In this document: piece after piece, positions 57,572-59,176 of the stretch | Numbering within the stretch: position 1 is the stretch's first letter | How the letters are laid out: the number at the start of each line of letters is the position of its first letter | Assembly: GCA_030372985.1 (NCBI GenBank) | Contig: JAUCQB010000072.1 | Span: 1-64,000, forward strand | Source: Phycisphaerae bacterium | GTDB lineage: Bacteria; Planctomycetota; Phycisphaerae; UBA1845; PWPN01 | Direction: 5' to 3' | Length of the DNA: 64,000 nucleotides | Notes under the pieces: generated by a model | Told to the model about the DNA's origin: nothing | The model's database searches: none | Seen by the model: only the letters and a program-made list of their open reading frames with translations | Position numbers and translations under genes: made by a program

Positions 57572-58903
57572 TCAGGCTCCTCCAATAATCTCGCGCCCGC
57601 CCATGTAGGGTCGCAGCGCCTCGGGTATTCGAATGCGTCCATCGGCCGTCTGATGGTTCTCGACCAGGGCGATCAGGATGCGCGGGCTGGCGATGACCGT
57701 GTTGTTCAGCGTGTGGCAGAACCGGGTATTCCTGTTCGCGTCGCGGTATCGCAGCTTCAGGCGGCGGGCCTGAAACTCGTAGAACCGCGAGGCCGAATGC
57801 GTCTCGCCGTAGCCGCCGCGCGAGGGCATCCACGTCTCGATGTCGAATTTCTGCACCTGGCCCTGGCCGAGGTCGCCGGTGCACACGTTGACCACGTGGT
57901 AGGGCAGTTCCAGGGCTGCCAGCACGTCCTCGGCGTTGTGCAGGATCTCGGCATGGTGTTTGCGGGAGACTTCCTCGTCATTTCGGCAGACGATGACCTG
58001 TTCGACCTTGTCGAACAGGTGAATCCGGTAGAGCCCATAGGTGTCTTTGCCGGCGGCCCCCGCCTCACGCCGGAAGCAGGTACTGCACGCGACGTATTTC
58101 TTCGGCAGTTCGTCCTCGGTGAGGATCTCGTCGCTGTGGTACGCCGTCAGCGGCACCTCGGCGGTCCCGACAAGGCTCATCGCGTCACGCTCGCAGCGGT
58201 AGGCCTGCTCCTCGCCTCCGGGAAAGTATCCGGTGCCCACCATCATCGCGTCGCGGACCAGCACCGGAACGGTCATCTGAACGAAGCCTCGCCGTACCAT
58301 CATCTCCAGCGCCAGACGCAGGACCGCCTGGTGAAGGGCGCTGCCGTCGCCGCGGAGCACGTAGTTGCGTGTCCCGGCCAGCTTCACCCCGCGATCGACG
58401 TCCAGCATCCCCAGCCGGGTCATCAGCGTGACGTGGTCCTGGGGCTCGAAATCAAATTTCGGGATCTCGCCCACTCGCCGGATCTCCACGTTTTCCGTCT
58501 CATCCTTGCCGATGGGCACCTCGTCGGCCGCCGGCTGGGCGACCGTCAGCAGGGCGGCGTCAAGCTGCTCGCAGGTCTGGCGATGCTCCGATTCAAGCTG
58601 TTTGACCCGGGCCTTCATTTCAGAAACCTGCTGAACGAATTGGTCGGCCTCGGCCTTCAATTCGGCCTCGGTGCGTCCCGAGGCCAGGGCCTGCTGGAAG
58701 TACCGGCTCTTGGGATTGCGGTAATGGGCGATCTGGTCGCTGATTTCATTCTGGCGGTGCTTGATCTGGTCCATTTCGGTCTGGAGACTTCGTCGCTTGT
58801 CGTCCAGGGCGCAGACGGCGTCGATGTCGCAGTGGATGCGCTTGTTTCGAGCCGCGGTCTTGAAACGGTCCGGATTCTCGCGAATCGCCTTCATATCGAT
58901 CAT
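57572..58903 (-). CDS. serS: seryl-tRNA synthetase
   Basis: A 443-residue class II aminoacyl-tRNA synthetase charging tRNA-Ser. The N-terminal coiled-coil arm (about 30-105) is followed by motif 2 (F-R-R-E-A-G-A-A-G-K-D-T-Y-G) and motif 3 (A-S-P-R-I-L-I-A-L-V-E-N-H-Q). ATG 58903 has AGGA seven bases upstream. It lies downstream of a promoter, a leader peptide gene and an attenuator-like terminator, and 11 bases before a small ORF that precedes aroF. Regulation by tRNA charging is therefore likely. Confidence 0.97.
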   Translation of the reverse strand: MIDMKAIRENPDRFKTAARNKRIHCDIDAVCALDDKRRSLQTEMDQIKHRQNEISDQIAHYRNPKSRYFQQALASGRTEAELKAEADQFVQQVSEMKARVKQLESEHRQTCEQLDAALLTVAQPAADEVPIGKDETENVEIRRVGEIPKFDFEPQDHVTLMTRLGMLDVDRGVKLAGTRNYVLRGDGSALHQAVLRLALEMMVRRGFVQMTVPVLVRDAMMVGTGYFPGGEEQAYRCERDAMSLVGTAEVPLTAYHSDEILTEDELPKKYVACSTCFRREAGAAGKDTYGLYRIHLFDKVEQVIVCRNDEEVSRKHHAEILHNAEDVLAALELPYHVVNVCTGDLGQGQVQKFDIETWMPSRGGYGETHSASRFYEFQARRLKLRYRDANRNTRFCHTLNNTVIASPRILIALVENHQTADGRIRIPEALRPYMGGREIIGGA

Positions 58904-58936
58904 GTTCGTGTCCTGCCGTCTGTCCTGAAACAAGAA

Positions 58937-58971
58937 AAGCCCTGAGCCACCATTCCGGCGTCTCAGGGCTT
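58937..58971 (-). terminator. attenuator hairpin in the serS leader
   Basis: On the minus strand AAGCCCTGAG (58962-58971) pairs perfectly with CTCAGGGCTT (58937-58946). An inner CGCC/GGTG stem across one A/G mismatch closes on a GGAAT loop. The run TTTTCTTGTTT follows at once. The structure ends 33 bases before the serS start, so it would stop transcription before serS unless disrupted. An alternative pairing of CCGGCGCTGCGGGGC (58999-59013, end of the leader gene) with this 5' arm and loop can be drawn, which would act as antiterminator. Confidence 0.75.
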
Positions 58972-58995
58972 GTGGCATCGTATTTTGACGTCAGC

Positions 58996-59124
58996 TCATG
59001 CCCCGCAGCGCCGGTAAGGGCTAAACGAATACCAGAAGTAGTAGCTGCTGAACAGAGTGCTGCCGGCAACGGGGGCTGAACCGTTGTGCGAGCGTCCCAG
59101 TGAATGGTTGCGGTCAATCGCCAT
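58996..59124 (-). CDS. serS-aroF leader peptide, rich in Ser and aromatic codons
   Basis: A 42-residue peptide encoded by codons I read individually from ATG 59124 to TGA 58996-58998. Eight residues are serine. Residues 26-37 read S-S-Y-Y-F-W-Y-S-F-S-P-Y, so serine codons are interleaved with all three aromatic amino acids. A consensus promoter lies just upstream, and the leader ends 24 bases before the terminator hairpin. The start has AGAGG about 13 bases upstream. Position and composition fit a regulatory leader peptide, where ribosome stalling on uncharged tRNA controls termination. Confidence 0.7.
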   Translation of the reverse strand: MAIDRNHSLGRSHNGSAPVAGSTLFSSYYFWYSFSPYRRCGA

Positions 59125-59147
59125 AGTCAATCTCAGCCTCTGGCCCT

Positions 59148-59176
59148 ATTGTTGCACCGGCCGCAGGCCATGTCAA
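59148..59176 (-). promoter_or_regulatory. promoter of the serS-aroF leader
   Basis: On the minus strand TTGACA (59171-59176), a perfect -35, is followed after exactly 17 bases by AACAAT (59148-59153), four of six for the -10. Transcription would begin near 59141, leaving about 17 bases before the leader peptide ATG. Confidence 0.65.

Follow-up and report, generated by a model that had tools for sequence, protein, structure and literature searches.

Which amino acids does the leader in front of serS and aroF respond to, and is serine one of them? The question is raised by a locus on the minus strand of the 64-kb stretch of DNA analysed here (the window), where a 42-codon leader (SSYYFWYSFSPY) lies between a promoter-like site and a 14-pair terminator, with serS and then aroF behind them. 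An earlier note had described the region as an attenuator that seemed to read serine and all three aromatic amino acids together. Our analysis makes it fairly probable that a ribosome-mediated attenuator turns serS-aroF on when charged tRNA-Ser, -Tyr, -Phe or -Trp is short. The parts of this proposal differ in strength: an attenuator with aromatic reading is very probable, and, given such an attenuator, it is quite probable that serine is a true fourth input.

The promoter claimed by the earlier note, TTGACA-17-AACAAT, was located as a promoter-like site at 59176-59148 (minus strand, as are all elements of the leader and operon), with 10 of 12 matches, as the sole such site in a scan of 58600-59500 (shuffle mean 0.3). 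The predicted leader ORF, with 42 sense codons (MAIDRNHSLGRSHNGSAPVAGSTLFSSYYFWYSFSPYRRCGA), extends from an ATG at 59124 to a TGA at 58996, and ends FSSYYFWYSFSPYRRCGA. The putative sensor, marked out by codon enrichment, occupies 59049-59014 and consists of codons S26 S27 Y28 Y29 F30 W31 Y32 S33 F34 S35 P36 Y37, as had been read before. The terminator at 58971-58937, AAGCCCTGAG-A-CGCC...GGTG-G-CTCAGGGCTT, is indeed predicted to fold into a hairpin of 14 pairs, followed by TTTTCTT and ending in a U-rich run, TTTTCTTG (58938-58931). A simple terminator scan did not list this hairpin, probably because of its internal mismatch, and returned one unrelated plus-strand site instead (shuffle mean 0.6). 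The gene behind the hairpin is serS, as claimed (serine--tRNA ligase, 57572-58903; TIGR00414, 442.8 bits). It is followed by a 97-codon ORF at 57267-57560, lacking any Pfam or NCBIfam match (the query included one additional upstream codon), and by aroF at 56159-57181, encoding a DAHP synthase with a ferredoxin-like domain (TIGR01361/PRK08673, PF18152). A DUF1571 gene at 55178-56107 (minus), immediately 3' of aroF, possibly belongs to the same operon, and an IS110-type transposase gene (PF01548, PF02371) lies upstream of the leader at 59663-60733 on the plus strand. A T-box, a riboswitch or another Rfam RNA was also considered and rejected: the region 56000-59700 gave two matches at E ≤ 5 (E 3.3 and 4), neither of them a T-box, and both were below the gathering score, with nothing above chance.

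Three mutually exclusive pairings are predicted at the leader of the window, in agreement with the 1:2, 2:3, 3:4 set that had been claimed for it. Arm 2, CCGGCGCTGCGGGGC, is formed by the final codons of this ORF (59014-59000) and is predicted to pair with arm 3 (58971-58957), the antiterminator partner that is also the 5' arm of the terminator; arm 4 (58951-58937) is the terminator 3' arm. Pairing of the leader end with the terminator 5' arm thus stood as the earlier note had it, and only 1 of 45 swapped arms paired equally well or better. An upstream arm pairing with arm 2 is predicted as well; this protector is better drawn as CAGCCCCCGTTGCCGGC, at about 59080-59062, than as the GGCAGC-type arm that had been named for the role. 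Its duplex with arm 2 was predicted at -30.9 kcal/mol, which none of 8 swapped arms equalled. The overall stability of the 243-nt region is ordinary (z -0.36; equalled or exceeded by 63 of 200 shuffles); the evidence for structure is comparative.

Such evidence came from the nine serS-aroF loci in which a leader was found. Arms were exchanged among 46 loci (these nine and 37 with aroF alone, described below), and in every one of the nine no more than 2 of 45 swapped arms paired with their partner as well as arms 2 and 3 of the locus itself. When a fragment ending at arm 3 was folded, the antiterminator was the minimum-energy fold in 9/9 loci; in the complete fragment it was the terminator, again in 9/9 (both fragments start 24 bases upstream of where the stop codon ends, which excludes arm 1). 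Tested against 8 swaps, the native 1:2 pairing ranked first or second in eight of the nine loci; it failed in G007, where 7/8 swaps were equally good. Seven rows entered the alignment A3, which omits L053 (part of an earlier eight-row alignment, with its stem one column off) and L236 (found later). In these rows all 56 cells of the terminator stem are paired, 3 of its 8 pairs show two-sided changes, and slid controls reached 14-59%. For the antiterminator, 86.9% of 84 cells are paired and 2 of 12 pairs show two-sided changes (slid controls 30-53%), values that were reached by 13-118 of 500 shuffles, depending on the measure. The genome G016, which belongs to another family, is instructive in this respect: its terminator 5' arm reads GCCTCAAG in place of GCCCTGAG, and its arm 2 is altered to fit that arm, giving 12 consecutive pairs. 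The locus thus has a terminator between leader and first gene, predicted with covariation; an antiterminator excluding it, predicted and with comparative backing; a protector pairing predicted in 8/9 loci; and a short leader ORF with clustered, operon-linked codons. A promoter-like site was found ahead of the leader in six of the nine loci, and the scan gave none in the other three; the gap between terminator and serS measures 22-131 bases, and in many cases this leaves too little sequence for the scan to rule out a promoter there.

The mechanism suggested by this arrangement would be as follows. When all four tRNAs are charged, the ribosome would reach the stop codon and, judging from position, cover arm 2, so that the terminator 3:4 could form before serS. 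Stalling within codons 26-33 (59049-59026; 3 Ser, 3 Tyr, 1 Phe and 1 Trp) would leave arm 2 free, since a ribosome covers about 12-13 bases ahead of its A site; the 2:3 pairing would then form and polymerase would continue into serS and aroF. If the leader were not translated at all, arms 1 and 2 would pair and termination would prevail. Transcription start, translation, stalling and readthrough are the parts of this scheme that we infer. The benefit to the cell could be that SerRS restores Ser-tRNA and DAHP synthase feeds the synthesis of Phe, Tyr and Trp.

How far does such a leader extend beyond the window? A DNA search with the leader region itself found matches in 3 of 61 genomes, the source genome included; because of this short reach, the serS and aroF proteins were used as queries. 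In family f1, to which most of the leaders belong, serS is present in 11 of 13 genomes, and six of these (G000, G002, G004, G006, G007 and G009) carry the leader and terminator before serS-aroF. All six leaders have a dense S/F/Y/W stretch near the end, an Arg-containing tail, the stop codon and a terminator starting GCCC(T/C)GAGACGC. The other five f1 genomes with serS (G001, G003, G008, G010 and G011) have no aromatic leader there. Upstream of serS in G001 (L011), the terminator is retained and the aromatic codons are lost, possibly a decayed attenuator. In 10 of the 11 f1 loci aroF lies behind serS; in G010 serS reaches the contig end. One further leader comes from f5, represented by the single genome G016, and two from f27 (G294 and G228, of three genomes), bringing the number to nine. 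With serS upstream regions shorter than 150 bases discarded and repeats merged (108 reduced to 93), a strict rule (6 or more S/F/Y/W per 10 codons and a terminator with 8 or more pairs) found a leader and terminator in 9/93 regions and in 0/93 on the reverse strand; under a looser rule (3 F/Y/W per 10) the corresponding numbers were 13/93 and 4/93.

Leaders were found only at serS loci linked to aroF. Taking as linked an aroF at ≥50% identity starting 900-3000 bases past the serS start, we found the leader in 9 of 41 linked loci and in 0 of 48 unlinked ones (4 undecided; Fisher 5.5e-4), and the serS-aroF order, which the earlier note had put forward as a check, lies behind all nine. The strict rule found no leader in the remaining 32 linked loci, and no Ser-rich leader before serS in any of the 48 loci lacking aroF. 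At L080 and L085, with serS and no aroF in reach, aromatic-dense ORFs were noticed (5 and 6 per 10) and rejected, having no terminator by the rule. Alignment upstream of serS, also proposed earlier, showed that some of the relatives retain both the frame of the leader and its alternative stems despite sequence divergence.

Similar leaders occur before aroF where serS is absent. The aroF search gave a match in 259 of 397 genomes, and 149 among the matches listed were taken; G231 (first 42 residues missing) is excluded from the set and L276 gave no located aroF. The 148 listed loci were classed as 105 with aroF alone and 43 with serS, 'alone' meaning that serS was absent from the 1500-2300 bases retrieved, or from the sequence left before the contig ended, so that some may be misclassed. 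An aromatic leader with terminator precedes aroF alone in 37 of these 105 listed loci, against 0/105 both on the reverse strand and in block shuffles. The leaders (L161-L294) include, for example, GFGFWFNGYFYPAGQRAS in family f13 and GYRFWFYYFTG in f11. The arm 2:3 swap test was weaker here, 11 of the 37 among the matches listed falling in the top tenth. Among 14 listed loci with weak matches to model R1, L133, L134 and L144 are aromatic leaders before aroF; the rest resemble branched-chain leaders or chance matches. It is likely that aromatic attenuation of aroF is widespread in the class, and the serS-aroF leader would be one branch of it.

These leaders provide the comparison by which the role of serine may be judged. 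In a 14-codon window picked by aromatic density, both sets having at least 5 F/Y/W per 10 codons, serine makes up 21 of 98 codons (21%) in seven leaders before serS-aroF and 31 of 518 (6%) in the 37 leaders before aroF alone (matches listed), a contrast (Fisher 7e-6; rank test 0.0016) whose P values, as the leaders share descent and those before serS-aroF come from three families, overstate independence and serve as guides only. The aromatic share is similar, 52% and 49%, respectively. The inputs were upstream regions of 450 bases for serS and 600 bases for aroF, the terminators having at least 8 and 7 pairs, respectively; L053 and L236, found by looser rules, stand outside this like-for-like test. 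In a window independent of composition (20 codons, ending five ahead of the stop), the mean serine share of all nine leaders is 0.200, against 0.064 before aroF alone among the listed matches. By family, the means are 0.20, 0.21 and 0.29 in the three families with serS-aroF leaders and 0-0.08 in five families for leaders before aroF alone (one-sided P 0.018, likewise a guide). Both serine codon boxes are used in the nine leaders (12 AGY and 15 TCN), which is what a sensor of SerRS would need, and no aromatic codon becomes AGY by a single base change; AGY is also about half of the serine codons in the aroF-alone leaders (17/31, listed matches).

A second leader copy, found in G016 before pheS and a pheT-like ORF (L125:1882-1989, contig C9; pheS assigned by family search, pheT by reading of the sequence), bears on the same point. 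It shares 45 of 57 compared bases with the leader before serS of that genome, and reads QFYFSGQFRF where the latter reads SSYFSGWYWF, so that the pheST copy has no Trp against two, one Ser against three, and four Phe against two. The codon content of the two copies differs according to the operon behind each; the order in which they arose is something that we infer. Such a leader was absent from the other 29 pheS loci scanned (1/30 positive; 79 genomes with a match).

The most serious alternative is an attenuator for aroF whose reading is confined to Phe, Tyr and Trp, with serS carried along and the serine codons as tolerated filler. It would agree with the abundance of aromatic leaders before aroF alone (the 37 of 105 listed loci), with the 23 of those 37 listed leaders whose 14-codon window includes all three aromatic residues and one or more Ser, which means that density of serine differs and not its presence, and with G002, which retains the aromatic residues with one Ser adjoining the sensor and none in the 14-codon window. 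Against it, serine rises from 6% (listed matches) to 21% at a similar aromatic share, in three families, and AGY accounts for 12 of 27 serine codons. Operons that include serS have the higher serine density in their leaders, G002 being an exception, and we regard the purely aromatic reading as rather unlikely. The relief of termination by four tRNAs, as the earlier note had proposed it, divides into an aromatic part that is well supported and a serine part for which the contrast with aroF-alone leaders and the pheST copy speak and in which G002 is the weak point.

Two further explanations dispense with reading of charged tRNAs. The hairpin could be the terminator of an upstream tRNA-Arg transcript, with a chance ORF lying over it and serS unregulated; 7 of the 9 relatives searched indeed have a tRNA-Arg(TCG) gene ahead of serS, and in G010 a similar hairpin, read by eye, comes right after a tRNA-like stretch. 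However, a tRNA search found none in the 64-kb window, a promoter-like site separates tRNA and leader in G006, G007 and G009, transcription of serS would have to pass through the terminator or start in the short gap, and the frame and codon class of the leader persist over nine loci, with 0/93 in the reverse-strand controls; we consider this origin very unlikely. Even less credible is a TnaC-like arrest leader, in which the nascent peptide, within the ribosome, would detect a free amino acid or some small molecule. Arrest leaders of this kind exist, TnaC being an example described in the part of PMC8429421 used here, and the present leader is short and contains aromatic residues. Yet six other leaders, that of G016 included, have 16-41% identity to the leader peptide of the window with the S/F/Y/W class kept, the start Met is the sole invariant residue of the seven when aligned, and no conserved arrest peptide was found among them; such low identity suits codon reading over a fixed arrest peptide.

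We therefore retain a ribosome-mediated attenuator responding to Ser-, Tyr-, Phe- and Trp-tRNA. As a prediction from comparison of sequences, the attenuator is strongly supported, its reading of Phe, Tyr and Trp well supported, and its reading of serine moderately supported. Which codons such leaders contain varies with the operon that follows. We also lean, with less assurance, towards a more general formulation, in which one 42-codon leader would act as a four-input OR switch polling the charging of Ser-, Tyr-, Phe- and Trp-tRNA, and evolution would rewrite its codons to match the operon: F/Y/W before aroF, Ser in addition with serS, and Phe when copied before pheST.

Some other elements were noticed in these genomes. 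A second conserved element lies between serS and aroF, namely the small ORF after serS (57267-57560, minus strand, in the window; also L005-L009, L012 and L029), whose end carries a GRxxFxFxRPP-like motif kept in the family. Several relatives have there a mini-ORF ending GRCxFxFSRPP or similar (GRTGFGFTRPPERIG in the window), overlapping a hairpin that lacks a U run. In this intergenic hairpin 89.3% of cells are paired, with no covariation beyond shuffles; the element is possibly a second leader, for aroF. In the source genome, a leader, QGLLLLGLLLRARVGPAGG, and a terminator precede a leuA-like gene, so named by reading of the sequence (L131:3579-3682; G000 contig C44, 4078-4181), and L104, L137 and L139 likely hold other branched-chain leaders.

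If the proposed reading is true, several consequences follow. We know of no serine-reading attenuator described earlier, and this one would be the first, as well as the founding case of a large repertoire of leader attenuators in Planctomycetota. Two unrelated demands, tRNA-Ser charging and entry into the shikimate pathway, would meet in one attenuator, and leader codon content would track operon content across deep divergence and after duplication. Ribosome-mediated attenuation, and hence coupling of transcription and translation near the promoter, would be placed in Planctomycetota, bacteria with a condensed nucleoid and internal membranes. Leaders before serS-aroF and before aroF alone also constitute a natural experiment on which codons a leader reads.

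Leaders that read several amino acids are familiar from ilvGMEDA and thrABC of E. coli, and the serS-aroF leader resembles them in this; their amino acids belong to one pathway, whereas SerRS and DAHP synthase, whose genes stand behind the present leader, are unrelated products. A serine gene and an aromatic gene share an operon also in serC-aroA, the members of which are functionally linked and for which we know of no joint leader peptide. That operon, which exists in E. coli according to the part of PMC11878033 consulted, contains the biosynthetic serC and not serS. Attenuator leaders before tRNA synthetase genes have been described or predicted for pheST (PMC11802643), leuS and trpS (PMC1262725) and cysS (uORFC-8-2; PMC8632094). 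As far as these sources are excerpted here, the leader codons fit the synthetase gene downstream, as in our case, but each leader concerns a single amino acid and none precedes serS.

Closest to the aromatic half of the system is the aroR leader before aroF in Corynebacterium glutamicum, containing Phe-Tyr-Phe and relieved by stalling (Neshat et al. 2014, as summarised in PMC11802643). It likewise places an aromatic-codon leader peptide before a DAHP synthase operon; it differs in that the excerpted summary reports no reading of Trp or Ser, includes no serS and describes Tyr supply as having no effect, and in belonging to another phylum. Similarly, the uORFC-13-1 motif before aroF in Acholeplasma combines a uORF with a terminator and is predicted to depend on Phe; according to the corresponding excerpt of PMC8632094, it involves Phe only, in another phylum, and no synthetase gene is named. 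In 2010 leader-peptide systems were stated to have been demonstrated in no groups other than Proteobacteria and Actinobacteria, to which Firmicutes were added (PMC2965389, in the excerpt used). Our search of the open-access literature found no serS leader, no leader attenuator from Planctomycetota and no Ser-plus-aromatic leader, which agrees with the view of the earlier note that a joint serine/aromatic sensor had not been described, the single types being known separately. Leader attenuation itself is a known principle, and the new part of the serS-aroF leader would be the combination of serine with the aromatic amino acids.
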